Below, in pieces: positions 15,667 through 37,616 of a stretch of 64,000 nucleotides of DNA. Origin of the DNA: Gordonibacter sp. 28C (GTDB taxonomy: Bacteria; Actinomycetota; Coriobacteriia; Coriobacteriales; Eggerthellaceae); NCBI RefSeq assembly GCF_003339845.1, contig NZ_PPTR01000003.1:310001-374000 (forward strand). The letters are read 5' to 3'. Made by a program: the position numbers and the translations under genes. Each line of letters starts with the position of its first letter. The stretch's first letter is position 1. The notes under the pieces are model-generated. The model was not told where the DNA came from and made no database searches. It worked only from the letters and a program-made list of their open reading frames with translations.

Positions 15667-16563
15667 ATGAAGGACATCATTAACGTCGCCGTGGTCACGT
15701 TCGAGCCGCGCTGGGGCGACAAGGAACGGAACCTGAACCGCATCGTGGGCTATATCGAGTGCGCCGCCGCGCGCGGGGCGAACCTGGTGGTGCTGCCCGA
15801 GACGGCGCTCACCGGCTACGACGTGGTCGCCGTCCCGGAAGGCGAGGAATGCATGCACCACCGCCTGGCCGAGCCCATCCCGGGGCCGTCGACGGAGGCC
15901 GTGGCCGAGGTCACGCACCGCTTGGGCGTGTACGCCGTGTTCGGCCTGGCCGAGCGCGCCGAAGACGGCACCGTCTACAACGCCGCCGTGGCCTGCGGGC
16001 CCGACGGCGTGCTGGGCCGCTACCGCAAGATGCACCTGCCGGGGGCCGAGTCCACCTGGGCCGGCCGCGGCGACGAGCCGTTCATGTTCGGCACGCCGTG
16101 GGGACCCGTGGGCGTGAGCATCTGCTACGACACGTTCGTGTTCTCCGAGATCATGCGCTACTACCGCGCGAGCGGGTGCCGCCTGATAGCGAACCCGTTC
16201 GCCGTGAACACGGGTGTCACGGCCCGCAACATAAAAGACTCGCTCGAGTACCTGGCCGCGAACAACGACGTGTACATAGCCTCGGCGAACTGCACCGGCT
16301 GCGCCGTGTCCGACGACTTCGTGGGCGGCAGCAGCGTGATAGGCCCCGGCAAGAACGTTCCCGCCATCTGCTACTACACCGGCGGCCCCTGCGGAGCGCC
16401 CGGCTCCGACGAGCAGGAGCTGCACCTGGGCACCGTCGATTTGTCCTACGTGGACAAGCCGTTTTTGGCCAAGCAATGGGCCGACGCGGAGCCGGACTTC
16501 CGCCCCGGTGTCTACGCCCGCTGGTACGGCGAGCTGGCCGCCCAAGAACGGTTCAAACGGTAA
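15667..16563 (+). CDS. Nitrilase-superfamily C-N hydrolase
   Basis: A 298-residue carbon-nitrogen hydrolase with the Glu-Lys-Cys triad in place: E45 in VVLPETALTG, K121 in GRYRKMHLP, and C153 in VSICYDTF. These cytoplasmic enzymes cleave amides, carbamoyl groups or nitriles. The length and motif spacing are those of the aliphatic amidase/carbamoylase branches rather than true nitrilases; the substrate is unknown. AAGGAGG lies just upstream of the ATG. It probably forms a transport-and-cleavage unit with the MFS gene under the LysR regulator. Confidence 0.9.
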   Translation: MKDIINVAVVTFEPRWGDKERNLNRIVGYIECAAARGANLVVLPETALTGYDVVAVPEGEECMHHRLAEPIPGPSTEAVAEVTHRLGVYAVFGLAERAEDGTVYNAAVACGPDGVLGRYRKMHLPGAESTWAGRGDEPFMFGTPWGPVGVSICYDTFVFSEIMRYYRASGCRLIANPFAVNTGVTARNIKDSLEYLAANNDVYIASANCTGCAVSDDFVGGSSVIGPGKNVPAICYYTGGPCGAPGSDEQELHLGTVDLSYVDKPFLAKQWADAEPDFRPGVYARWYGELAAQERFKR

Positions 16564-16701
16564 AGAGCTTGCTTTTCAACGACGGGATAGACGGGATAAC
16601 GGGCGTCGTGGCCGCCCGCCTGCGCCGGGCGCGCACTCCCTGCGCAGGCGGGCCAAGCAGCATTCGTAGAAGCGCATGAAGACAGGCGGACATGCAAGCC
16701 C

Positions 16702-16878: not shown

Positions 16879-16947
16879 AACGATCCGATAACACCGAGGT
16901 AACGATCGGATCTCTGCGTGACACGTAAAAGACAATTCGTAAATACT
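16879..16947 (+). promoter_or_regulatory. Shared adhesin promoter element, copy A
   Basis: Three AAC boxes start at 16879, 16890 and 16901, exactly 11 bp apart. GTGACA (16918-16923) follows, and AATACT (16942-16947) after an 18-base spacer. The region also contains GATCCGA...TCGGATC as an inverted repeat. The same layout recurs before the next three genes. Direct repeats at one helical turn before a -35 box are typical of OmpR/PhoB-family activator sites. Confidence 0.6.
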
Positions 16948-17013
16948 AAGGATACGGTTTAAACAGCAAATCCCAATTGTTTTGTCGTTACCTGACGAAT
17001 GGAGGAGTCTCCT

Positions 17014-18693
17014 ATGCACGATATTCGTGCCCTACCCGCCTCGACCCTGCCACACCGCGCACTGGCAATTCTGCTCGCAGTGTTGCTGGGGGCTTCAATG
17101 CTCCCCTTGACTGCGTTCGCCGACCTGGAAGAAAGGGGAACCCAGCGCCCCGATGCACCGGGCAACGTTCAAGCGTTTCTCGAAAGCGACGGCGTCCACG
17201 TAACATGGGATGCCGTGGCCGATGTCGATGGATACTCCGTATTCCGCAGCGTCGCTAAAAACGGTCCCTTTGAAATAATCTTCGACTTGAACGCTCAAAA
17301 CCTTTCTTGTTTAGACCAAGATGCCGCCCCTGGCGGAACGTACTACTATATCGTTATTTCCATGGGGCCCGATATGAAGAGCCTCCCGTCGAACGTCGCC
17401 AGCGTTACCTTGCCCCCGTACGGGCAGTTCCATGTGACTTACGACGGTGCCGGCGCCGACGCGGGCACGGTGCCCGTGGACTACAACACATACCTCGCAG
17501 GGGACCTGGTCACCGTGCCTACCGAGACGCCCACGCGCATCGGATCCGAGTACACGTTCGGCGGTTGGAAGGACTTCGCGACCGGCGAGGTGTACCAGCC
17601 TGGAGACCCGTTCACAATGCCCGAAGGCGGCATCACCCTCACTGCGCTGTGGGCCGAGCACGCCGTCCCCGGCAACAACAGGCTCGTGCTGGACGACGAG
17701 ACCCTGACTGCGGGCGACACGGTGCGGTTCACGGCCACGGGCGACCGCCAGGACGTCGCAGGCACCGCCGGCGGGGAGACGCGCTACATCCCCATCTCCT
17801 GGACCATCTTGCCGCTGCTCGACGGTGTCGAACTTCCCTTCGATCCTCCCACCTCCCCCTATCGGGGCGGTGCGATAATGGGAGAGCCCGGCCGCTACTA
17901 CGTGATGGTGACCTACGACATGCAGTACTTCAACATCTGTTGCAACGAGTGGGAATCCATGGGCCCCGACAATCACGATATTATCGCGGTTCCCTTCTCG
18001 GTGAGGGCTCAGGTCCACAGCCTCACCTACCTGCGCAACTACACGCCCGAGGACGCGTTTTTCTCGCCAGCGGGCAACTTCGCAGCAGGAACCGAGGTTC
18101 CTTTGAGCGACATCGGGTCGGTGGGCATCCTACAGGACGACTACACCCGCGACGGCTATAGGTTCATGGGCTGGAGCGCCGATCGCTTCGCCAGCCAGGG
18201 TGTCGTAGGCGACTACCTCATGCCGAGCGAAGAGACCGCATTGTACGCCATATGGGCACGCGAGCACGCGGTCACCTACGACGGCAACGGCGCGGACGGC
18301 GGAACGGTTCCTACGGACCCGCTCGCCTACGTCAAGGACGACGCGGTGACCGTGGCGTCCGACGAGCCCACGAGGGCCGGCTACAAGTTCGCCGGCTGGA
18401 CGGCCGACCACGACGGCAATGTCTACCGCGCCGGCGACACGTTCGCCATGCCCGAGGGCGACGCGCGCCTGGTAGCCCGCTGGACCCCACAGGCGGCCCC
18501 GGGCCCGGACAACAACCAAGCCGCGAAACCGGGCACGCCCGCGAACACGCCGAAGGGCACGCAGGCCAGCGCATCGAAGATGGGCTTCCTGCCCAAGACC
18601 GGCGACGAGGCCGCGCCGTTCGCGCTCTTGGGCATCGTGGCCGCTCTGGGAGCCTCGGGCGTGCACGTGCTGCGCAAGAAGAAGCAGGAGTAG
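17014..18693 (+). CDS. LPKTG cell-wall surface protein 1 (array)
   Basis: 559 residues; first of five tandem paralogues. A signal peptide (MHDIRALPASTLPHRALAIL..., cut near AFA-D at about 34) leads into a fibronectin-III-like domain (about 45-130). An InlB/Flg_new repeat of the VTYDG...GG kind follows, then one GDRQ module (about 222-333; GDRQ and GETRYIPISWTI visible, with an ICCNEW dicysteine). Two more repeats and a Pro/Asn-rich linker come next, then LPKTGDE (526-532), a membrane segment and KKKQE, the sortase anchor. It should be covalently linked to peptidoglycan; an adhesive role is inferred from the repeats. I chose the ATG at 17014, 7 bases after GGAGGA. Confidence 0.88.
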   Translation: MHDIRALPASTLPHRALAILLAVLLGASMLPLTAFADLEERGTQRPDAPGNVQAFLESDGVHVTWDAVADVDGYSVFRSVAKNGPFEIIFDLNAQNLSCLDQDAAPGGTYYYIVISMGPDMKSLPSNVASVTLPPYGQFHVTYDGAGADAGTVPVDYNTYLAGDLVTVPTETPTRIGSEYTFGGWKDFATGEVYQPGDPFTMPEGGITLTALWAEHAVPGNNRLVLDDETLTAGDTVRFTATGDRQDVAGTAGGETRYIPISWTILPLLDGVELPFDPPTSPYRGGAIMGEPGRYYVMVTYDMQYFNICCNEWESMGPDNHDIIAVPFSVRAQVHSLTYLRNYTPEDAFFSPAGNFAAGTEVPLSDIGSVGILQDDYTRDGYRFMGWSADRFASQGVVGDYLMPSEETALYAIWAREHAVTYDGNGADGGTVPTDPLAYVKDDAVTVASDEPTRAGYKFAGWTADHDGNVYRAGDTFAMPEGDARLVARWTPQAAPGPDNNQAAKPGTPANTPKGTQASASKMGFLPKTGDEAAPFALLGIVAALGASGVHVLRKKKQE

Positions 18694-18741
18694 CGCCGAT
18701 CCCCGCAAAAACCTGCGCCCTTCCCTAGCAACTCCGCAGAA

Positions 18742-18769
18742 AAGCAGCCCCGGCGAACCGGGGCTGCTT
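18742..18769 (+). terminator. Terminator of surface protein 1
   Basis: 12-bp perfect stem AAGCAGCCCCGG / CCGGGGCTGCTT with a CGAA tetraloop, 48 bases after the stop. Confidence 0.75.
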
Positions 18770-18878
18770 GCGTTCGGGTGCCCGAGCCGGCAACGATTTT
18801 GGTCCTTGCCGGCGTCCGCGCCCGAGGAGCGCCCTTTTAAGCTTTCGGGGGCGAATCGACCCAAAAAGGTCGCTTTTC

Positions 18879-18947
18879 AACAACACGATGACACCGGGGT
18901 AACGGTACGGAAGTTCTGTGACACGGGGAAAACGTTTCGTCAATACT
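18879..18947 (+). promoter_or_regulatory. Shared adhesin promoter element, copy B
   Basis: Boxes at 18879 (AAC), 18890 (GAC) and 18901 (AAC), 11 bp apart. GTGACA (18918-18923), an 18-base spacer and AATACT (18942-18947) follow. Every distance equals that of copy A. Confidence 0.6.
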
Positions 18948-18951
18948 TGAG

Positions 18952-18982
18952 ACACGGTTTGGGTATCAAATCCAAGCCGTGT
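18952..18982 (+). promoter_or_regulatory. 5' leader hairpin of surface protein 2
   Basis: ACACGGTTTGG (18952-18962) pairs with CCAAGCCGTGT (18972-18982) over 11 bp with one G-U, followed by CTTTTG. It starts at about the expected transcription start, so it would be a 5'-terminal stem-loop. A related, imperfect hairpin lies in the leader of gene 3 (21188-21220). Confidence 0.4.
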
Positions 18983-19018
18983 CTTTTGTCGTCTACCGAC
19001 AAGTGAAGGAGAAACCCC

Positions 19019-20914
19019 ATGCACACTATCCGCACCGCACCCACCTCGCCCCCGGCACGCCGCGCGCTCGCGTTTCTGCTCGCGCTGCTGCTGGGGCTGT
19101 CGATGATCCCTCTGGCCGCGTTCGCCGGGCCGTCCGCAGAGCCGTATGCGATCCCCGAACCGCCGAGCAACATCCAGGCGAGGGACACAAATTACGGCAT
19201 CGAGATATCTTGGGACCCTGCCGCGCAAGCCAATTCTTACATTCTGTACAAAGGTGATTCACTAACGGGGCCTTGGAGAGAAATCGCCCATCCGGAACGT
19301 TCCCCGTACACGAATGCAGACGCTCAACCAGGCAAGACATATTTCTACCGCCTCTCCACGTTTTGGAATGAAGAAGCAAGCGACATGTCCGCCGTCGCCA
19401 GCGCCATGATACCCGACCCGAGCCCATCCGCACAAACCTACCCCCTGATCTACACCTGCGATTACCCCGACGGCAGCGACTCTCTCACATCGATTGCCGG
19501 ACAATTCGCCTCGGGCACCCCCGTCACCCTGAGCGACATCACGTCGGTGGACCCCGATGGCGAAGACTGGTCCAACCCCAACTTCAAGTTCATGGGATGG
19601 CTGAACAGCAGCGACGGCACGGTATACAACCCGGGCACTACCCTTCCCATGCAAGAGCCGTTCCTGCTCCTGTCTGCTGCATGGGATAGCCCCTTCGGAA
19701 TCACCTACGACGGCAACGGCGCGGACGGCGGCATCGTGCCCGTCGATAACGGCATGTACTTCTCGCGCGACCTGGTGCATATCCCCCTCGACACGCCAAC
19801 GAAAACCGGATACACGTTCGTCGGCTGGAAGAACCGCGCGGACGGCGCGGTACACCAGCCGAATGAGGACTTTCCCATAACGCGGGGCGGCGCCTACCTC
19901 GTCGCCCTCTGGGCCGAGCGTGCCGACGCGGGCAAGAACACGCTCGTGCTGGACGACGACGACCTAACCGCAGGCGACGCCGTGTGGTTCACGGCCACGG
20001 GCGACCGCCAGAGCGAGACGGGCTCCACCGGCGGGGAGGCGCGCTTCGTCCCCGTGTCATGGACCATCGAGTCGAACTTCCACGACCTGCCCTTCTCCCC
20101 CGACGCTCCCTATCGGGGCAGCGCGATAATCGACGAGCCCGGATCCTACATCGTGACGGCAACTTACGTCGAGCAGTTCTTCAACATCTGCTGCGACAGC
20201 TGGGAGCCCACGGGCAACACCGCGACGCTCTCGAAACCCTTCACGGTGAAGGCGCGCACCTACGAGCTGTCCTACTTCCGCAACTACACGCCCGAGGACG
20301 CGTTCGTCGCACCCGGCGGCGCCTTCGCCGCAGGCGATACCGTGGCTTTGAGCAGCATCGACTCGGTGGGCGTCACGCAGGACGACTACACCCGCGAGGG
20401 CTACCGCTTCATGGGCTGGAACACCGACCGCACCGCCGACTGGAGCGTCACCGGGAACTTCGCCATGCCGAACGGCAAGACGGACCTCTACGCCATCTGG
20501 GCGCCCACGTGCGCCGTGGTCTACGACGGCAACGGCCACGACGGCGGCACCGTGCCCGTGAACGAGTTCGCCTACGTCAAGGGCGACGCGGTGACCGTGG
20601 CGTCCGACGAGCCCACGAGGGCCGGCTACAAGTTCGCCGGCTGGACGGCCGACCACGACGGCAAGGTCTACCGCGCCGGCGAGAAGTTCGCCATGCCCGA
20701 GGGCGGCGCGCGCCTGGTGGCCAAATGGACCCCGCAGGCGGCCCCGGGCCCGAACAACAACCAGGCCGCGAAGCCCAGCGTACCGAAGGCCCTTTCCAAG
20801 GCGGGCTTCCTGCCCAAGACCGGCGACGAGGCCGTGCCGTTCGTGGCCCTGGGCGCGCTCGCGGCCGCCGGCGCGCTGGGCGTGCGCTCTCTGCGCAGGA
20901 AGAAGCAGGAATAG
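19019..20914 (+). CDS. LPKTG cell-wall surface protein 2 (array)
   Basis: 631 residues. The signal peptide MHTIRTAPTSPPARRALAFL... is nearly identical to those of genes 3 and 4. Then come a fibronectin-III-like domain (about 45-132), a 'YRNYxPxD'-type repeat, a VTYDGNG-type repeat, one GDRQ module (about 303-415; GDRQSETG, RFVPVSWTI, NICCDSW), two more repeats of both types, an Asn/Pro linker, and the anchor LPKTGDE at 598. GAAGGAGAAA precedes the ATG. It is a cell-wall protein by its anchor. The last repeat is almost identical to that in genes 1 and 3, suggesting gene conversion. Confidence 0.9.
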   Translation: MHTIRTAPTSPPARRALAFLLALLLGLSMIPLAAFAGPSAEPYAIPEPPSNIQARDTNYGIEISWDPAAQANSYILYKGDSLTGPWREIAHPERSPYTNADAQPGKTYFYRLSTFWNEEASDMSAVASAMIPDPSPSAQTYPLIYTCDYPDGSDSLTSIAGQFASGTPVTLSDITSVDPDGEDWSNPNFKFMGWLNSSDGTVYNPGTTLPMQEPFLLLSAAWDSPFGITYDGNGADGGIVPVDNGMYFSRDLVHIPLDTPTKTGYTFVGWKNRADGAVHQPNEDFPITRGGAYLVALWAERADAGKNTLVLDDDDLTAGDAVWFTATGDRQSETGSTGGEARFVPVSWTIESNFHDLPFSPDAPYRGSAIIDEPGSYIVTATYVEQFFNICCDSWEPTGNTATLSKPFTVKARTYELSYFRNYTPEDAFVAPGGAFAAGDTVALSSIDSVGVTQDDYTREGYRFMGWNTDRTADWSVTGNFAMPNGKTDLYAIWAPTCAVVYDGNGHDGGTVPVNEFAYVKGDAVTVASDEPTRAGYKFAGWTADHDGKVYRAGEKFAMPEGGARLVAKWTPQAAPGPNNNQAAKPSVPKALSKAGFLPKTGDEAVPFVALGALAAAGALGVRSLRRKKQE

Positions 20915-20950
20915 CGTTCTGTTGAGGCACGTTGCAGACAACTCCTAAGC

Positions 20951-20989
20951 ACGAGGAAGCCCCGGTTCGCCGAGGGCTTCCTCGTTTTT
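20951..20989 (+). terminator. Terminator of surface protein 2
   Basis: ACGAGGAAGCCC / GGGCTTCCTCGT stem followed by TTTTTG, 37 bases after the stop. Confidence 0.88.
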
Positions 20990-21113
20990 GCGAGCAACGC
21001 GCCAGAATACCCATGGCCCTTTGAGAAAACGGCACCCGCACGAGTGCTTGAGGGCATGCCCATACGCAGCATCGCTGATTGAATCGTTTCTGAGAACGCG
21101 AGCCTCTTTTTTC

Positions 21114-21183
21114 AACGATCCGACAACGTCGAGGTAACGATCCGACGATCTCAGTGACACAGCGAAAACAATTAATAAATACT
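21114..21183 (+). promoter_or_regulatory. Shared adhesin promoter element, copy C
   Basis: AAC boxes at 21114, 21125 and 21136 (11-bp steps), all continuing as AACG. GTGACA (21154-21159), an 18-base spacer and AATACT (21178-21183) follow. The first and third boxes share AACGATCCGAC, a clear direct repeat. Confidence 0.62.
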
Positions 21184-21249
21184 TAAGAAACGGTTTGGAC
21201 AGAAAAACCACGCCGTGTTTTTGTCGTTACCTGACGAGAAGGAGTTCCC

Positions 21250-23688
21250 ATGCACACTATCCGCACCTTGCCCACCTCGCCCCCGGCGCGGCGCGCGCTG
21301 GCATTCCTGCTCGCGCTGCTGCTGGGGCTCTCGATGATCCCTTTGGCCGCGTTCGCCGACCAGGGCACAGGCCCGGACGCGACCGTCAACCCTCCCGGCA
21401 ACGTTCACGCAGAAGTTTCGATGCAAAATGCCATCTTGGTTGACTGGGATCCGGTCGACGGCGCTGACTCTTATTGGGTGTACTGCCGCGATTCAGGCTC
21501 GAACGACTTCTCCCTCGTAGGCGTTCGAAGCGTTCCGAACTACGTGAGCGACGGCCTCGCGCCGGGCACGACCTACTACTATTACGTCGTCGCCTACAAA
21601 GGCGTCGAGCCGAGCGCCCCTTCGGGCATCGTCTCCGCAACGACGAACGGAGAGGTCCACGCGGTCACGTACTATCGCAACTACCCCGAAGGCGATACGG
21701 AATTCGTATCTGGCAGAAACTTTCTCGCCAGCGCCAGCGTCCCTCTGAGCGACATCACGTCGGTTGGCACCGCCGGCGCGAACTGGTCTCGCCCCGATCT
21801 CAAGTTCATGGGTTGGATGGATGGAGACGGCCAAGTGATCTCAGCCGGCACCGTGGTCCTCATGCCCGATCGGCCTCTAGCCCTCTCCGCCATTTGGGAA
21901 ACCCAGCGCAAGGCAATCTACATCAGCGACGGCGCCGAAGAGAACACCGTACCCGTGGACAACCGGGGCTACTTTCCGGGCGACCTCGTGACCGTGTCTT
22001 CCATGGTGCCCGTATGGCCGGGACACACGTTCGGCGGATGGCACAACTTGTTCACCGGCCAAGTGCTCCAGCCGGGCGACACGTTCCCCATGCCGGAAAA
22101 CGGCGCCATTCTCCTTGCCCAGTGGCCCGAGCGGGCCGACGCGGCCAACAACACGCTCGTGCTGGACAACGACGATTTGTACTTGGGCGAACCGATTTCG
22201 TTCACCGCCACGGGCGACCGCCAAGACGCGACGGGCACTTCCGACGGCGACACGCGCTACATCCCCGTCAAGTGGACCGTCGACCCGTTTTCCGACGTCC
22301 CCTTCATCGACACGTACCCCTTCACGGCCGGCGCTGTAACGCTGAACCTCGGCGCCCAGTCGGTGACGGTCACCTACGAAAAGCAGGTGTACGACGTCTT
22401 CGTCGGCGATTGGGTTTCCACACCGGAAACCACAACCCTTTCGAAGCCTTTCACCGTAAAGGAACGGGTGAGTCCGCTCACGTACCACCGCAACTACGAC
22501 TCCGGCGACACCGCCTCCGCAAGCGGCGGAGACTTCGCGCCAAATGTCTCCATCCCCTTGAGCGACATCACGTCGGTGGGAACCGACGGCGACAACTGGG
22601 CTCGCAGCGGCTACCGGTTCATGGGCTGGAGCGACGACCCCAGGAGCCCATGGGGCTTCACGGTACAGTACCCCATGCCCGATGGGCCCTTGAATCTATA
22701 CGCCACCTGGGGTGCCCTGCACACGGTCACGTACGACGGCGACGGTGCCGACGGCGGCATCGTGCCCGTGGACAACAACGAGTACGTTACGGGCGAAGAG
22801 GTGCCTGTGCCCAGCGACATGCCTACGAAGACCGGGTACACGTTCGGCGGCTGGCTGAATACGCTGAACGGCCAGGTGTACCAGCCCGAACGTATCTTCT
22901 TCATGCCGGAAGAGGGAGCCAACCTCAAGGCCCTGTGGGCCGAGCACGCCGACCAGGGGCAGAACACGCTCGTGATAGATGACGACGACCTCATCGTGGG
23001 CGACACGATGACATTCACGGCCACGGGCCACCGCCAAGACGTTGAGGGCTCTGCCGGCGGGGAGACGCGCTTCATCCCCGTCTCGTGGACCGTCGAATCG
23101 GTCCTGCCCTACCTGCCGTTCGCAAACCAGTATCCCTTCACGGGCAGCTACGTGACGAGCACCCCCGGCACCTACACCTTGACGGCGGTGTACGTCGAGG
23201 AGTTCTACAACATCTGCTGCGACACGTGGGACCCCACGGGCAATTGCGTGTCGCTCTCGGTCCCCTTCACCGTGCGGGCTCCGGGCGCCTACGCCGTGGT
23301 CTACGACGGCAACGGCCACGACGGCGGCACCGTGCCCACCGACGCGCTCGCCTACGCTAAGGACGATGCCGTGACGGTGGCCTCGGGCGAGCCCGTGAAG
23401 TCCGGGCACGTCTTCGCCGGCTGGAAGGCCGACCACGACGGCAAGGTCTACCGCGCCGGCGACGCGTTCGCCATGCCCGAGGGCGGCGCGCGCCTGGTGG
23501 CCCAGTGGACCCCGCAGGCGGCCCCGGGCCCGAACGGAGGCGGCTCGAAGGGCACGCCGGCCGCCCTGTCCAAGGCGGGCTTCCTGCCCAAGACCGGCGA
23601 CGAGGCCGTGCCGTTCGTGGCCTTGGGCGCGCTCGCGGCCACCGGCGCGCTGGGCGTGCGGTCCCTGCGCAGGAAAAAGCAGGGGTAG
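21250..23688 (+). CDS. LPKTG cell-wall surface protein 3 (array)
   Basis: 812 residues. The signal peptide ends at AFAD (about 37). A fibronectin-III-like domain (about 45-135) is followed by five InlB/Flg_new-type repeats and two GDRQ modules (about 297-408 and 568-678). The second module carries the NICCDTW dicysteine; in the first that segment reads VYDVFVGDW. The C-terminus has a short Pro/Gly linker, LPKTGDE (779), a hydrophobic segment and RRKKQG. AGAAGGAG precedes the ATG. Compared with gene 2 it has one extra repeat-GDRQ unit, so length variation in the family comes from whole-module duplication. Confidence 0.9.
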   Translation: MHTIRTLPTSPPARRALAFLLALLLGLSMIPLAAFADQGTGPDATVNPPGNVHAEVSMQNAILVDWDPVDGADSYWVYCRDSGSNDFSLVGVRSVPNYVSDGLAPGTTYYYYVVAYKGVEPSAPSGIVSATTNGEVHAVTYYRNYPEGDTEFVSGRNFLASASVPLSDITSVGTAGANWSRPDLKFMGWMDGDGQVISAGTVVLMPDRPLALSAIWETQRKAIYISDGAEENTVPVDNRGYFPGDLVTVSSMVPVWPGHTFGGWHNLFTGQVLQPGDTFPMPENGAILLAQWPERADAANNTLVLDNDDLYLGEPISFTATGDRQDATGTSDGDTRYIPVKWTVDPFSDVPFIDTYPFTAGAVTLNLGAQSVTVTYEKQVYDVFVGDWVSTPETTTLSKPFTVKERVSPLTYHRNYDSGDTASASGGDFAPNVSIPLSDITSVGTDGDNWARSGYRFMGWSDDPRSPWGFTVQYPMPDGPLNLYATWGALHTVTYDGDGADGGIVPVDNNEYVTGEEVPVPSDMPTKTGYTFGGWLNTLNGQVYQPERIFFMPEEGANLKALWAEHADQGQNTLVIDDDDLIVGDTMTFTATGHRQDVEGSAGGETRFIPVSWTVESVLPYLPFANQYPFTGSYVTSTPGTYTLTAVYVEEFYNICCDTWDPTGNCVSLSVPFTVRAPGAYAVVYDGNGHDGGTVPTDALAYAKDDAVTVASGEPVKSGHVFAGWKADHDGKVYRAGDAFAMPEGGARLVAQWTPQAAPGPNGGGSKGTPAALSKAGFLPKTGDEAVPFVALGALAATGALGVRSLRRKKQG

Positions 23689-23737
23689 CGCCATCTCCTG
23701 CAAGGGTCGCGCCTAGACGGCAGCGGCAATCTTTACA

Positions 23738-23775
23738 CAAGGGAAGGGCCCCGGCATGCCGGGGCCCTTCCCTTG
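23738..23775 (+). terminator. Terminator of surface protein 3
   Basis: A 17-bp stem CAAGGGAAGGGCCCCGG and its complement around CATG, about 50 bases after the stop. The U tract is poor. Confidence 0.7.
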
Positions 23776-23823
23776 CCCGGTCCTGCGCGGTGTCGGCAGA
23801 AGTCCCTCGACGACCCGTTTTTC

Positions 23824-23869
23824 AACGCCACGGCAACGACAAGGAAACGATCTGGCAATCGTCGTGACA
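23824..23869 (+). promoter_or_regulatory. Shared adhesin promoter element, copy D
   Basis: AAC boxes at 23824, 23835 and 23846 (11-bp steps), each continuing as AACG, then GTGACA at 23864-23869. The -10 position is degenerate here (TAGAAC), so this copy may be weaker or more dependent on the activator. Confidence 0.5.
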
Positions 23870-23966
23870 TAGCGGCAACGGCTCAACTAGAACGGCTACG
23901 CGATCTGGATAATGGGGTGGTGACACTCGCATTACCAATCCGTACCCGATGGATGAAGGAGTTCCC

Positions 23967-26528
23967 ATGCCGCACCTTCGCACCTTGCCCACTTCGCCCC
24001 CGGCACGCCGCGCGCTGGCTTTCCTGCTCGCGCTGCTGCTGGGGCTGTCCATGCTTCCCCTGGCCGCGTTCGCCGAGTCGTCCGCTCGGGCGACCCTCGA
24101 CCCTCCCGCAGGACTCGGCGCCAACGCCACATCGTCGAGCTCCATCGAGATAAGCTGGGCCGCCACCTCCGGCGCCGAAGGCTACCGGGTGCTTCGCAGC
24201 ACCTCGGAGTCGGGGAGCTACGAGCAGATAGCAAACACGACATCGACGAGCTACACCAACACCGGGCTCAGTCCGGACACGACCTACTACTATATGGTCG
24301 CCGCCTACAACGCCAGCGAGACGAGCTCCTTCGGCGGTCCCGTCAGCGCCAGAACGGAATCGCTCCCCGCGCAGCAGGCCGACCCGGGCCTGAACACGCT
24401 CGTGATGGACAACTACGAGCCGTACGCGCACGAGGGATTCGGGTTCACGGCCACGGGCGACCGCCAGGACGCCGCAGGTACCGTGAACGGCGAGACGCGC
24501 TACGTCCCCACGTCGTGGACCATCAGGTCGGATCTTTCAGGTTTCTTCTCCGGCCCGGCCCCCTACAAAGACAGCGTGATCATCGACCAGCCCGGCAACT
24601 ACACTTTGACGGCCACTTACACCTTGCAGCGATACATCCCGAGCGTTGGTTGGCTGCCCATGGACAGCACCGCAACGCTCTCGGTCGACTTCACCGTCAA
24701 GGCGCGCACCTTCGAGCTCACCTACCTGCGCAACTACACGCCCGATGATGCGTTCTTCTCGCCCGGCGGCAGCTTCGAAGAAGACGCCCTCGTATCCGCC
24801 AGCGACATCACGTCGGTAGGCGTTCCAGGCGACAACTGGGCTCGCGTCGACGGCTACGTCTTCGGCGGTTGGCTGGACAAGGACAGCGGCAACTTGTACT
24901 ACCCCGGCGAACAGTTCCGCATGGTGAAGGGGGGCATGAGCCTCACCGCCCTTTGGGGGGCACAGGCGGATGCGGGCAAAAACACGCTCGAACTGGACAA
25001 CAACGAGCCGTACGCGCACGAGGTGTTCACCTTCACGGCCACGGGCGACCGACAGGACGAGCCCGGCACCGTCGACGGCGAGACGCGCTACGTCCCCACG
25101 TCGTGGACCATCAGGTCGGGCCTTTCCGGCGACTTTCCCAGCACGTCCCCCCGCGAGGAAAGCGCGATCATCGACCAACCCGGCGACTACACTTTGACGG
25201 CAACCTACGCCCTCGAGCACTACTCGCACAGCATGGGCTGGCAGCGCACGGGCGACACCGCGACTCTCGCAACCGATTTCACCGTGAAGGAGCGCACCTA
25301 CACGCTCACCTATCTGCGCAACCACTCGCCCGAGGACGCGTTCTTCTCGCCCGGCGGGGAATACCCGGCGGGTACTTCCATCCCTTTGAGCGACGTGTCC
25401 TCGGTGGGCACCACGCACGATGATTACACCCGCGCCGGCTACAAGCTCATAGGTTGGAACACCGACCGATCTGCCAACTGGGGGCAGGTGTACAGCTACA
25501 CCATGCCGAACGAAAACACGTCGCTGTACGCCATCTGGGCGCCCGCCTACGCGGTAACCTACGACGGCAACGGGGCGGACCCCGGCACGGTGCCCGTCGA
25601 CAACAACACGTACCTGGCGGGAGATCCGGTGAACATCCCCGTCGAAACGCCCACGAGGGCCGGCACCGGGTACACGTTCGGCGGATGGCAGAACCCTGCG
25701 GGCGGCAAGGTGTACCTGCCCGGCGACCGCTTCGCCATGCCCGAAAACGGCATCACCCTCGTCGCCCTGTGGGCCGAGCAGGCCGACAAGGGCAAGAACA
25801 CGCTCGTGGTCGAGGACGACGACCTGACCGTGGGCGACACGCTGCGGTTCACGGCCACGGGCGACAGGCAGGAGGCCACCGGCGACGTGAACGGGGAAAC
25901 GCGCTACGATCCCGTCTCGTGGACCATCGTCCCGCTCCTCTCGAACCACATGCCCTTCGCGAACCAGCATCCCTTCACCGACAGCATGGTAATGAACATG
26001 CCGGGCAACTACGTTCTGACGGCGACCTTCGTCATGCGGGTGTACGACGCGAACATAAAGGCATGGCACCCCGTGGGCGACCTCGAGATGATATCGGTTC
26101 CCTTCACGGTGCGGGCGCCGGGCGCCTACGCGGTGACCTACGACGGCAACGGCGCGGACGGCGGCACCGTGCCCGTGGACGCGCTCGCCTACGCCAAGGG
26201 GGACACCGTGACCGTGGCCTCCGACGAACCCACGCGGACCGGCTACACGTTCGACGGCTGGACGGCCGACCACGACGGCAAGGCATACCGCGCCGGCGAC
26301 ACGTTCTCCATGCCGGAGGGCGGCACGCGCCTCGTTGCCCGCTGGACCCCTCAGGCGGGACCGGCGCCGGACAACAACCAAGCCGCGAAGCCGGGCGTTC
26401 CGACCGCCTTGTCCAAGGCGGGCTTCCTGCCCAAGACCGGCGACGAGGCCGTGCCGTTCGTCCTTCTGGGCGTCGTGGCCGCCTTGGGGGCAGCGGGCGT
26501 GCACGCTCTGCGTAAAAAGCAAGGGTAA
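23967..26528 (+). CDS. LPKTG cell-wall surface protein 4 (array)
   Basis: 853 residues, the longest of the five. A signal peptide (MPHLRTLPTSPPARRALAFL...) precedes a fibronectin-III-like domain (about 45-130). Three GDRQ modules follow (about 140-247, 336-441 and 608-717), interleaved with four InlB/Flg_new-type repeats. A Pro/Asn linker, LPKTGDE (821), a membrane segment and RKKQG close it. The first two GDRQ modules share the variant NNEPYAHE/NYEPYAHE lead-in and lack the dicysteine, so they look like a local tandem duplication. I chose the ATG at 23967 behind GAAGGAG. Confidence 0.9.
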   Translation: MPHLRTLPTSPPARRALAFLLALLLGLSMLPLAAFAESSARATLDPPAGLGANATSSSSIEISWAATSGAEGYRVLRSTSESGSYEQIANTTSTSYTNTGLSPDTTYYYMVAAYNASETSSFGGPVSARTESLPAQQADPGLNTLVMDNYEPYAHEGFGFTATGDRQDAAGTVNGETRYVPTSWTIRSDLSGFFSGPAPYKDSVIIDQPGNYTLTATYTLQRYIPSVGWLPMDSTATLSVDFTVKARTFELTYLRNYTPDDAFFSPGGSFEEDALVSASDITSVGVPGDNWARVDGYVFGGWLDKDSGNLYYPGEQFRMVKGGMSLTALWGAQADAGKNTLELDNNEPYAHEVFTFTATGDRQDEPGTVDGETRYVPTSWTIRSGLSGDFPSTSPREESAIIDQPGDYTLTATYALEHYSHSMGWQRTGDTATLATDFTVKERTYTLTYLRNHSPEDAFFSPGGEYPAGTSIPLSDVSSVGTTHDDYTRAGYKLIGWNTDRSANWGQVYSYTMPNENTSLYAIWAPAYAVTYDGNGADPGTVPVDNNTYLAGDPVNIPVETPTRAGTGYTFGGWQNPAGGKVYLPGDRFAMPENGITLVALWAEQADKGKNTLVVEDDDLTVGDTLRFTATGDRQEATGDVNGETRYDPVSWTIVPLLSNHMPFANQHPFTDSMVMNMPGNYVLTATFVMRVYDANIKAWHPVGDLEMISVPFTVRAPGAYAVTYDGNGADGGTVPVDALAYAKGDTVTVASDEPTRTGYTFDGWTADHDGKAYRAGDTFSMPEGGTRLVARWTPQAGPAPDNNQAAKPGVPTALSKAGFLPKTGDEAVPFVLLGVVAALGAAGVHALRKKQG

Positions 26529-26604: not shown

Positions 26605-26797
26605 CCGGCGCAGGCTCCTAGCGCCCGCGCGCTTTAAAGCGCACCGACGTCGCGAAGCTCGTCCACGAACGGGCAACGCTGCGGCAACGGTCCCATAAAC
26701 CGCCATCACGTGACGGAAACGGCTTGCGACCAGGGAAGGCGTATTCATGATAATGAATTTGCACCCCATTCGCAGCCGTCCCACGAAGGAGACCCTC

Positions 26798-28207
26798 ATG
26801 CACAACATTCGCACCCTGCCCGCCCCCTCGCCGGCGCGCGCCGCATTGGCGCTCGCCCTCGCGCTGTTCCTGGCGCTTTCGATGCTCGTTCCCGCCGCAT
26901 ATGCCGAACCGTCCGCAGGAGCGGATGCGACCGTCGAGAAGCCCGTGAACCTGAGGGCGGACGCGCTGTGGTCCGACGCCATCGTAACAAGCTGGAGCCC
27001 CGTCGCCGACGCCCAAGCCTACGAGGTGTACCGCAGCACCAGCGAGCCGGGCCCTTACGAGCTCATAGGCACCTCGGCGTCGGCAGAGTTCATGGACGTC
27101 GGCCTCAATTCGAACACGACCTACTACTATCGCGTCGCAGCCGTGGACGGCAGCGGCAACCGCAGCGACCTGTCCGACATAGCCAGTGCGACGACGCCCG
27201 ACAAGCTCTACCAGCTGTCTTACTACCGCAATTACTACCCCGGCGACACGACTATCGCATCAGGAGGAATGCTCGACGGGGGCCACTACCTTCGCTTGAG
27301 CGCCATCACGTCGGTGGGCCCCGAAGGTGGAGCCGGCGTCGACTGGTCCCGACCCGGCTACCAGTTCGTAGGCTGGATGGACATGGCAACCGGCGCCGTC
27401 TACCAAGCCGGCGAGACGTACGCCATGCCATACGGAGACGCGTCGCTGCGCGCCCTCTGGGCGGCCCAGTACACGGTGACCTACGACGGCAACGGCGCGG
27501 ACGGCGGCACGGTGCCCGTGGACACCAACGGCTACGCAGCGGGAGACCCGGTTACGGTGGCGCCCGACGAGCCCACCAGGACCGGCTACGCGTTCGCCGG
27601 ATGGCTGAACGAGAACGACGGCGGCGTGTACCGGGCCGGCGAGACGTTCACCATGCCCGACGGAGGCGCCCGCCTGGTCGCTCGTTGGGCCCCGCAGGCC
27701 GACGCGCACCAGAACGCGCTCGAGCTCGACAACGACAACCTGCTCGCCGGTGACGACGTGTCGTTCCTGGCCACAGGCCATCGCCAGGACGAGCCAGGGA
27801 GCATTGACGGCGAAACGCGTTACGTGCCCGTGTCCTGGGAGGTCACTTCGTCCATCCACGGCGACTTCCCCGCCGCGTCCCCCCATCGCTCCAGCGCGAC
27901 CATGAGCGATCCCGGCAACTATGCCGTCACGGCATCCTACGCCCAGGAGCGCTACGTCGCCGGCACGGGCTGGCAGCGCACGGGAGCCTTCGAAACGCTC
28001 TCGCAGAGCTTCACGGTGAAGGCACGCCCGGTCGATCCCGTGAACCCCGTCAACCCGACCGATCCGACGGACAAGCGGCCGCCGCTCGTGCAGGTGTCCA
28101 AGGGCGGTCTGCCGAAGACCGGCGACACCGCCCCGTTCGTCGCCCTGGGAGCCCTGGCCGCCCTCGGCGCCGGCGGCGTGCTGGCCTCCCGCAGGAAGTC
28201 CAGCTAG
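26798..28207 (+). CDS. LPKTG cell-wall surface protein 5 (array)
   Basis: 469 residues, the shortest and most divergent paralogue. A signal peptide ends at AYA (about 33). A fibronectin-III-like domain (about 46-134) is followed by one 'YRNYYPGD' repeat, one VTYDGNG repeat and one GDRQ module (about 301-412, without the dicysteine). A Pro-rich PVNPTDPTD linker leads to LPKTGD (438), a membrane segment and RRKSS. It lacks the C-terminal extra repeat seen in genes 1-4. Its upstream region has AAC boxes (26675, 26686, 26698) and GTGACG (26710), but the spacing to the -35 is 6 bases longer than in copy D, so control may differ. An ATTCAT/ATGAAT dyad at 26743-26758 is unique to it. Confidence 0.88.
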   Translation: MHNIRTLPAPSPARAALALALALFLALSMLVPAAYAEPSAGADATVEKPVNLRADALWSDAIVTSWSPVADAQAYEVYRSTSEPGPYELIGTSASAEFMDVGLNSNTTYYYRVAAVDGSGNRSDLSDIASATTPDKLYQLSYYRNYYPGDTTIASGGMLDGGHYLRLSAITSVGPEGGAGVDWSRPGYQFVGWMDMATGAVYQAGETYAMPYGDASLRALWAAQYTVTYDGNGADGGTVPVDTNGYAAGDPVTVAPDEPTRTGYAFAGWLNENDGGVYRAGETFTMPDGGARLVARWAPQADAHQNALELDNDNLLAGDDVSFLATGHRQDEPGSIDGETRYVPVSWEVTSSIHGDFPAASPHRSSATMSDPGNYAVTASYAQERYVAGTGWQRTGAFETLSQSFTVKARPVDPVNPVNPTDPTDKRPPLVQVSKGGLPKTGDTAPFVALGALAALGAGGVLASRRKSS

Positions 28208-35236: not shown

Positions 35237-35749
35237 ATGGACGATGCGGCCGAAGACGCCTCTAGCCTCGTGGACATAGCGGCGGCCATCGATGCCTGCG
35301 GCAGCGCCGTTCTGCACCTGGCGCTCTGCAGGACAGGTTGCCGAGCCGGCGCGGAGGACGTGTTCCAAACCGTGTTCCTGCGCTTGTACCAGAAAGCCCC
35401 CGCATTGGAAAGCGACGAGCACCTCAAGGCGTGGCTTCTGAGGGTGACCGTGAACTGTTGCAACGACCTTTACCGAAACGCTCGAAAGCACCGACAGGTG
35501 GCCCTTGACGAAGCGATTGCCGTGGAAGCGGCGAGCGGCCTTCCCGACGAAGACGTCGACTCTCTGAAGCGCGCCATGGGAAAGCTGTCGGAAAAGCAAC
35601 AGGTGGCGCTCCATCTTTTCTATTTCGAAGGATACAAAACCGACGAGATAGCGAGCATCATGGACGAAAGCCCCGCAACGGTCCGGTCGTACCTGCACCG
35701 CGCTCGCAAGGCCCTGAAGATCACGCTGGAAGGAGGCCGCGATGCTTGA
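35237..35749 (+). CDS. ECF-type RNA polymerase sigma factor
   Basis: A 170-residue sigma-70 family protein with only regions 2 and 4. Region 2 includes AEDVFQTVFLRLYQKAP (about 39-55), and region 4 includes LHLFYFEGYKTDEIASIM then TVRSYLHRARKAL. Extracytoplasmic-function sigma factors are released from a membrane anti-sigma factor by a signal. The next gene overlaps its end by 8 bases and encodes a single-pass membrane protein, consistent with that partner. Confidence 0.9.
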   Translation: MDDAAEDASSLVDIAAAIDACGSAVLHLALCRTGCRAGAEDVFQTVFLRLYQKAPALESDEHLKAWLLRVTVNCCNDLYRNARKHRQVALDEAIAVEAASGLPDEDVDSLKRAMGKLSEKQQVALHLFYFEGYKTDEIASIMDESPATVRSYLHRARKALKITLEGGRDA

Positions 35750-37616
35750 GTCGGAGTTCCGGAACGCCTATCGGAAAGCCCACGAGGGCATCGACGTTTC
35801 CGACGATTTAAGGGAAAGGACCCTCGCGTTAGTCGCGAAAGAGGCGCCCAACCGCGCGAACGCCGTTCAGCCTGCCGAAGCCTCGGCCGGACAGACCGGC
35901 GGCGCGAATCGCAGCCGGACGTCGGCGGAAAAGCCGCCGCATGCTGCAAAGCGGGAGGGAAAAAGGGCTCGCTCCCCCGAACCGCGCATCGTGCGTCGCT
36001 GGGGCCTCGCCGCGGCGGCCTGTCTCGCACTCGCGGCGCTCGCGACGGGGCTCACGTTGGCGAACCCCTTCGGCCAACCGGACCCGAACGAACAGCCAGG
36101 CACGACGGCGAGCACGAAGGCCGACGGGTTCGTCCTGCAAGCCTATGCGGCAACGAGCAACACGCTCCTTGAACCTGGGGAGGACGGCACCGTCGTATTC
36201 AGCCGCGACATGGGGTACTCTGCCTCTAGTGACTACTACGACCAGGACGGATGCTACACCGGCTGCCTGTTCGGCGTGCAGGGCGACGGCATCGTGGGCG
36301 TCCAGGCCTCAACGAGTCGCGGGCAGCTCTACCGCTACACGTACGAAGAGTTCAAGGTCGGCGACGAACCAGAGAAGTGGCGCGAGGCCCTTTCGTGGGA
36401 TCCCACGAGGCGAGGCCGGGGCGCGTACTACGGAGCGTACGACAACGTGCAACCTGCGAGAACGGATTCCAGCCAGGGCAGCGACGACCCCGACAGCGTC
36501 GTCCAGGTGCGTCTGGCGAAGAAGCTCGGCAGCACCATCGACGTGGACATGGCACCCGGGACTTCGGGCGACTATTACTTCGGGCTATGGACGAACGACC
36601 CTTACGAAACAGGGCGCGACCCAGGCGAAGCCGCCATCGACCTGTTCGACGGGGAAACCCTGACTGTAACGGTGGAGTTCGAAGACGGCAGCACCGCCAC
36701 GAAGGTCATAGCGCTGCACGCAGCCGATATGAAAGCGGCGTGGACGGACTCGGGCATGGGCAGCGCGCAAGGCTGGGAAGTGTTGCCTGAAACGGCGGAC
36801 CGCAACGCGCTGCAAGAGGGGGAATCGTACGTTCACACGCTCTACGGCGTCGTGACCGACGAGAACGACGGACCGTTCCCCGGCTCGCTCGAACAGGCAA
36901 ACGAGCTCGAGGACGCACCCGAACCCCCTGCGGCGCTCAGCAGCGAGCCCTCCGCGATACCGGAGAAAGACCAAGACGGAAACGATTTCGCGCTTCAGGC
37001 GTCCAACGTGCTCGACTCGCAGGGGAAGGCCCTCCTCGCCGAGGCGAACCAGACGTTCGAGCGCGGCAACGGCACAACGTATTGCGCCGACGGCAACGGC
37101 ACGTTCGAGATAACGAACGTGCATGCCAAGCGGCTGGCGCAACTTCCCGAGGGCGTGTCCGTACTTGACACCAACGTCGTCAAGTACGGCGACCTGGCTT
37201 ACTTCAACAAGTGCCAACGGGAAGAGCGCGGCTTCGCCGTGACCGAGGACGGTCGCATCGAAGGCGCATACGCGTTCGTAGCCGTTTCGATGGATGTCGC
37301 GAACACCGACGACGCGCAGGCGTTCAAGAACACGTCGCAGTTCTCGAAACTCGTCCTGAGAAACGAGGACGGCCGCTGCCTCATCCTCAACGCACCTTTG
37401 CTGTACAGCGACTGGTGGGGCCATGATCGCGCAAGCGAGGGGTTTGAAACCCGCACCGCTCTTGCCGCCGGCGAGAAGCGCAGGATGACGCAGGTGTTCG
37501 CCGCGCCGGCGGGATGCCTGCACGATTCCGGCCTCCTGTTCGTGGTGTACGACTCGTTCACATCCGTTCCGCAAAACGAGAATTACCATGCGTTCGCCAT
37601 CGGCGGTTTAGGCTGA
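35742..37616 (+). CDS. Putative membrane anti-sigma factor, large ectodomain
   Basis: 624 residues. The short cytoplasmic part (about 1-85) is charged. A single membrane segment (about 88-108) is followed by an extracellular region of about 515 residues with no family I can name. The overlap with the ECF sigma gene argues that the N-terminal part binds that sigma factor. The ectodomain contains paired cysteines (CYTGC) and repeated acidic, aromatic stretches, and could sense an envelope or extracellular signal. Anti-sigma factors usually have far smaller external parts, so this size is notable. Confidence 0.65.
   Translation: MLESEFRNAYRKAHEGIDVSDDLRERTLALVAKEAPNRANAVQPAEASAGQTGGANRSRTSAEKPPHAAKREGKRARSPEPRIVRRWGLAAAACLALAALATGLTLANPFGQPDPNEQPGTTASTKADGFVLQAYAATSNTLLEPGEDGTVVFSRDMGYSASSDYYDQDGCYTGCLFGVQGDGIVGVQASTSRGQLYRYTYEEFKVGDEPEKWREALSWDPTRRGRGAYYGAYDNVQPARTDSSQGSDDPDSVVQVRLAKKLGSTIDVDMAPGTSGDYYFGLWTNDPYETGRDPGEAAIDLFDGETLTVTVEFEDGSTATKVIALHAADMKAAWTDSGMGSAQGWEVLPETADRNALQEGESYVHTLYGVVTDENDGPFPGSLEQANELEDAPEPPAALSSEPSAIPEKDQDGNDFALQASNVLDSQGKALLAEANQTFERGNGTTYCADGNGTFEITNVHAKRLAQLPEGVSVLDTNVVKYGDLAYFNKCQREERGFAVTEDGRIEGAYAFVAVSMDVANTDDAQAFKNTSQFSKLVLRNEDGRCLILNAPLLYSDWWGHDRASEGFETRTALAAGEKRRMTQVFAAPAGCLHDSGLLFVVYDSFTSVPQNENYHAFAIGGLG

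Follow-up and report, generated by a model that had tools for sequence, protein, structure and literature searches.

Surface-protein genes and their upstream regions

The window, meaning here the whole 64,000-nucleotide stretch of the Gordonibacter sp. 28C genome that was analysed, contains five tandem surface-protein genes. A carbon-nitrogen hydrolase gene lies upstream of the cluster, and the downstream neighbours were taken for secDF by eye. All five proteins carry Listeria-Bacteroides (Flg_new) repeats and three of them fn3 domains; the Pfam anchor model was reported for four of the five. Because a start of the form MHxIR or MPxLR is common to the family, the reading frames suggest that genes 1, 4 and 5 begin within their predicted ORFs, at the ATG codons given in Table 1. 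For gene 5 the inner start is also preferred because the listed one overlaps the -10-like hexamer. No account of the locus appeared among the papers listed in a literature search on the genus.

A search of five genomes of the genus detected the surface-protein family in three: the window genome (G000), G066 (Gordonibacter sp. Marseille-P2775, LT827128.1), which has four genes in the same place, and G067, which has one. The family was not found in G065 and G068 by this search.

Table 1. Surface-protein genes and upstream elements in the window (positions count from its first base).
Feature	Position	Strand	Elements
Promoter p1, boxes 1-3	16879..16903	+	AAC at 16879, 16890, 16901
p1 downstream part, class A	16918..16947	+	GTGACA 16918-16923 (box 4 GAC 16920), box 5 GAC 16931, -10-like AATACT 16942-16947
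Surface protein gene 1	16999..18693	+	Flg_new repeats, LPKTG anchor; likely real start ATG 17014 (read from sequence)
Promoter p2, boxes 1-3	18879..18903	+	AAC 18879, GAC 18890, AAC 18901
p2 downstream part, class A	18918..18947	+	GTGACA 18918-18923 (box 4 18920), box 5 AAC 18931, AATACT 18942-18947
Surface protein gene 2	19019..20914	+	Flg_new repeats, LPKTG C-terminus
Promoter p3, boxes 1-3	21114..21138	+	AAC at 21114, 21125, 21136
p3 downstream part, class A	21154..21183	+	GTGACA 21154-21159 (box 4 21156), box 5 AAC 21167, AATACT 21178-21183
Surface protein gene 3	21250..23688	+	Flg_new repeats, fn3, LPKTG C-terminus
Promoter p4, boxes 1-3	23824..23848	+	AAC at 23824, 23835, 23846
p4 downstream part, class B	23864..23913	+	GTGACA 23864-23869 (box 4 23866), box 5 AAC 23877, -10-like GATAAT 23908-23913
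Surface protein gene 4	23949..26528	+	Flg_new repeats, fn3, LPKTG C-terminus; likely real start ATG 23967 (read from sequence)
Promoter p5, class B	26664..26754	+	CAC 26664, AAC 26675, AAC 26686, CAC 26707, AAC 26718, -10-like GATAAT 26749-26754
Surface protein gene 5	26747..28207	+	Flg_new repeats, fn3, LPKTG C-terminus; likely real start ATG 26798 (read from sequence)

Anatomy of the box array

An earlier sequence-only reading had described three AAC boxes (one of them GAC) at 11-bp steps upstream of four of the five genes, with GTGACA 17-18 bases past the last box and, in three cases, AATACT after a further 18 bases. All 12 boxes were found on the sequence where they had been placed, at exact 11-bp steps before four surface genes. 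GTGACA is separated from the last AAC by N14 in p1 and p2 and by N15 in p3 and p4, and the 18-base spacer to AATACT was confirmed at the first three promoters. The description had to be extended in two respects. The fifth gene also has an array, in degenerate form (CAC-N8-AAC-N8-AAC ... CAC-N8-AAC), so that the count is five of five genes; and although boxes 1-3 are real, the array comprises five boxes, GTGACA itself holding the fourth.

Ten promoters from three species were compared: p1-p5 of the window genome, q1-q4 of G066 and r1 of G067. The five boxes of the array are built round RAC and fall into a triple (boxes 1-3) and a pair (boxes 4-5). The GAC within GTGACA is box 4, and a further RAC 11 bp downstream of it is box 5. 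Measured from box 5, the offsets are -52 to -54 for box 1, -41 to -43 for box 2, -30 to -32 for box 3 and -11 for box 4; boxes 3 and 4 start 19-21 bp apart, which is no multiple of 11. Boxes 1 and 2 are 11 bp apart in 10/10 promoters, CAC and GAC variants counted, and boxes 4 and 5 in 9/10, the exception being q3, which has GCC at box 4 and has lost GTGAC. Box 2 is AAC or GAC throughout (GAC in p2). The other departures are CAC (p5, q4) or GAC (r1) at box 1, GGC at box 3 of r1 (box lost), CAC at box 4 of p5, and GAC at box 5 of p1.

The five-box pattern was present in eight of the ten real intergenic regions (absent from q3 and r1). When each of the ten regions was shuffled 1000 times, it occurred in no shuffle for nine regions and once for q4. 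The pattern that defines class B promoters (see below) occurred at most once per region in the same number of shuffles, and was found in four of five real class B promoters, q3 being the one without it.

Two predicted positions of the core promoter

Behind the array, the -10-like element occupies one of two positions. In class A (p1, p2, p3, q1 and q2) AATACT starts at +11 from box 5. In class B (p4, p5, q3, q4 and r1) GATAAT starts at +31, exactly so in 5/5 promoters across three species. The class B core promoter therefore lies 20 bp, or about two helical turns, downstream of the class A position behind a fixed array. In class A the pair of boxes 4 and 5 would overlie the predicted -35 region, leaving 8 bp between its end and the -10-like hexamer; in class B the pair would lie just upstream of a poor -35.

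GTGACA can be a -35 element in class A. In class B it ends about 38 bp upstream of GATAAT, which is too far, so it cannot be the -35 of that hexamer. The box 4 GAC is retained in class B promoters p4, q4 and r1, which fits a role as a predicted binding box. The earlier view that the repeats stand just before a -35 formed by GTGACA thus fits the three AATACT genes but fails at genes 4 and 5, with GATAAT 31 bp after box 5. Between positions 16500 and 28300 of the window three sigma-70-like sites were listed, all of them the GTGACA-N18-AATACT of p1-p3, against a shuffle expectation of 1.5 (sd 1.2); p1-p3 have a predicted consensus-like promoter near the array.

Immediately after the p2 -10, at 18949-18985, the leader can fold into a perfectly paired hairpin (about 16 pairs) with a run of T behind it. 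The G066 ortholog q1 shares the hairpin (z -4.95 for p2 and -4.55 for q1), which may serve as an attenuator or stabilise the 5' end. A 5' hairpin common to all promoters was rejected: among the eight leaders folded (p1-p5 and q1-q3), only p2 and q1 were significant, and the other six gave z of -0.2 to -1.13.

Distribution of the array

The array is restricted to the surface-gene locus. Many random matches with the same spacing would have spoken against a functional site, and none were seen: CAAC-N8-RAC-N8-AAC-N14/15-GTGACA had four matches in the 3,864,912 bases of the genome, all at this locus, whereas neither the other strand nor a reversed control pattern gave any. A 97-column profile of the four promoters recovered the four real sites in its own genome, the next match having an E of 0.3. 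Across 138 family genomes the profile found G000 and the same locus in G066; four other family genomes gave a single match apiece (E 0.001-0.005), close to what chance would yield in 138 genomes. Nothing below E 0.03 was found outside the surface-gene locus when a box-only profile was run across the genus. The strict five-box pattern gave four matches in G000, one in G066 and one control match among the 138 genomes; it misses q2, q3, q4, p5 and r1 by design, so its absence elsewhere covers close copies only.

Comparison with known operators

An 11-bp period of direct repeats is typical of regulators of the OmpR/PhoB type. The array has such repeats, spaced by about one helical turn, at boxes 1-2 and at boxes 4-5, and 21 OmpR-type (Trans_reg_C) domains are encoded in the window genome. 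In the parts of the published accounts drawn on here, the actinomycete OmpR-type operators of GlnR (gTnAc-n6-GaAAc) and AfsQ1 (GTnAC-n6-GTnAC) share with the array its 11-bp period and similar five-base units (PMC10704036, PMC6988585). The nearest units are box 3 (GTAAC in 5/10 promoters, GAAAC in 2/10), box 4 (GTGAC in 7/10) and box 5 (AAAC in 6/10). An exact GTGAC-n6-GAAAC at boxes 4-5 was found in q4 only, and the other promoters agree in part. Unlike the GlnR and AfsQ1 operators, the array has mostly CAAC or TAAC at boxes 1 and 2, is longer, has its step broken between boxes 3 and 4, and stands before surface proteins, not nitrogen genes.

The PHO boxes of Streptomyces PhoP, as far as the cited section describes them, also have direct repeat units of 11 nt, and the other strand of the array offers GTT as in their GTTCACC (PMC6988585); GTT is all that the two have in common, and the remaining unit differs. 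The WalR/VicR operator TGTWAH-N5-TGTWAH, in the portion of the source used, again shares the 11-bp period but has a different half-site (PMC4168254): in the aligned boxes the period fits and the sequence does not.

Alternative explanations

The sequence-only reading took conserved spacing as evidence of a functional site. Within the window alone equal spacing could also come from plain duplication, because the four promoters are paralogous copies: one promoter could have been copied along with its gene, the spacing itself serving no function. The surface genes are indeed tandem paralogs, 43-57% identical to the first of them, p1-p4 have 79% mean column identity over 97 columns, and the promoter family is small and partly made of recent duplicates. 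The comparison between species points instead to selection. In the ortholog pairs p2-q1, p3-q2, p4-q3 and p5-q4, matched by order and likeness with no tree, box columns were identical in 57/60 comparisons vs 147/224 for the other columns of the same stretch (Fisher p 7e-7, a guide only, since the cells lack independence and the sequences used for counting had also served to pick the box columns). With two r1 pairs added the counts were 80/90 and 208/336. As a yardstick, 146/161 fourfold sites of the neighbouring hydrolase gene were identical between the window and G066, a figure that codon bias can raise. A second species conserves the array and a third retains traces of it, and in 5/5 diverged class B promoters from three species GATAAT keeps its distance of 31 from box 5. 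We consider mere inheritance of the likeness improbable.

Other kinds of reader were weighed against an OmpR/PhoB-fold regulator. A LytTR-type regulator could read boxes 1 and 3, 22 bp apart, with box 2 incidental; the genome has six LytTR domains, the first and third units of p3 are nearly identical, and the spacing of boxes 1 and 3 is near the published layout, given in the cited portion as 9-bp repeats that mostly have 12 bp between them and frequently stand some 10 bp upstream of the -35 (PMC6193735). However, box 2 is kept as AAC or GAC in every promoter, boxes 4 and 5 are 11 bp apart, not 21-22, the repeat sequences quoted there are unlike the array units, and two 9-bp repeats about 12 bp apart were not found as the sole pattern, so that this reader too appears unlikely. 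Slightly better placed, though still with a small chance, is an activator of the SARP type, a winged-helix protein too but no response regulator. In the operators of AfsR and its relatives, according to the excerpt cited, repeats recur at 11 or 22 bp; the final one lies 8 bp from the -10, and the upstream one overlies the -35 (PMC10936776). The five class A promoters follow this rule with repeats 11 bp apart. The five class B promoters break it, their pair lying 20 bp further upstream, and the array has an additional upstream triple. A BTAD protein is encoded once in each of the five Gordonibacter genomes, including the two where surface genes were not found. In the window genome it is a large protein (L213; G000:C5, around 21508-21810), unlinked to the surface genes, in which the stretch preceding BTAD, near the C-terminus, looks by eye like a SARP DNA-binding domain; Pfam gives BTAD alone. 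A small MerR-type protein like BldC might form a filament on the repeats, and its cooperative head-to-tail binding to varying numbers of direct repeats, as the consulted part of the report describes it, would suit the array (PMC5859096). Its units there are 9 bp and A+T-rich, AATTXXXX(C), whereas those here are 11 bp with RAC, and we regard this as very improbable.

Search for the regulator

No regulator gene was detected in or beside the cluster among the 17 window proteins scanned with Pfam, plus one rescan. Among the five genomes compared, no OmpR-type regulator was confined to exactly the three species with surface genes, and the box block was absent from all 21 OmpR-type regulator loci. 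Ten of these 21 regulators were scanned with NCBIfam, and none reached the cut-off of a named regulator among those shown. L111 is a WalR/MtrA/RpaB-like response regulator with an adjacent kinase, 98-100% identical across the genus; it was below every named NCBIfam cut-off shown. L108 and L113 had clear orthologs in G066 only, and L128 occurred in G000 only, among the five genomes. L108 adjoins a kinase and a molybdopterin oxidoreductase and L113 a kinase and an ABC transporter; neither was retained as a stand-out candidate.

Proposed operator and mechanism

The array is probably a head-to-tail operator for a regulator of OmpR/PhoB fold, with binding predicted. The shared OmpR/PhoB-type operator proposed in the earlier reading remains the best fit and is strengthened by the two further species; five boxes, two registers and five genes change its details. 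Speaking against it are the broken step between boxes 3 and 4, the losses in q3 and r1, the small and partly duplicated promoter family, and the negative outcome of the regulator search among the proteins and loci covered. In the mechanism that we infer, which takes in start sites, protein binding, regulator fold and activation, each of the five tandem genes would have its own sigma-70-type promoter under one common operator of five 11-bp half-sites with central RAC, in a triple and a pair. The likeliest reader would be one winged-helix regulator of OmpR/PhoB fold, whether a response regulator or an activator resembling the SARPs, which would bind the array head to tail and recruit RNA polymerase, and the whole surface-gene family would be switched together; the five surface proteins are thus probably under joint control.

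A single regulator might also give opposite outputs within the family, the core promoter having slipped by 20 bp behind a fixed array. At the class A promoters, which look strong by themselves, protein on boxes 4-5 would cover the -35 region and could block RNA polymerase; at class B, with its poor -35, the same protein could activate. We hold this to be improbable; if true, one signal would make the cell swap part of its surface proteins for another set.

The element is of an ordinary kind in a little-studied genus; its one unusual trait is that the core promoter takes either of two positions, 20 bp apart, behind an array that stays fixed. The five-box operator, found at a single tandem family of surface-protein genes, is a clear bait for the regulator in this gut genus, and two registers behind the same array provide a natural test of one operator at two distances.

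Other features of the locus

Just past the hydrolase gene, 16563-16600 reads CTTTTCAACGACGGGATAGACGGGATAACGG, by eye like a decayed promoter block. In G068 (L217) other small ORFs replace the surface genes after the hydrolase gene; judged by eye, they resemble a toxin-antitoxin pair. A gene for an ECF-type sigma factor (about 35237-35749) lies about 7 kb from the surface genes and overlaps a 624-aa ORF with no Pfam match, the two falling within 35237-37616. The -35 elements of ECF sigma factors often contain AAC; an ECF promoter was nevertheless rejected, as it would leave the repeated boxes at 11-bp steps unexplained and no conserved ECF-type -10 was seen. The sole Rfam match across the window was an FMN riboswitch at 2326-2520 on the + strand (86.2 bits).
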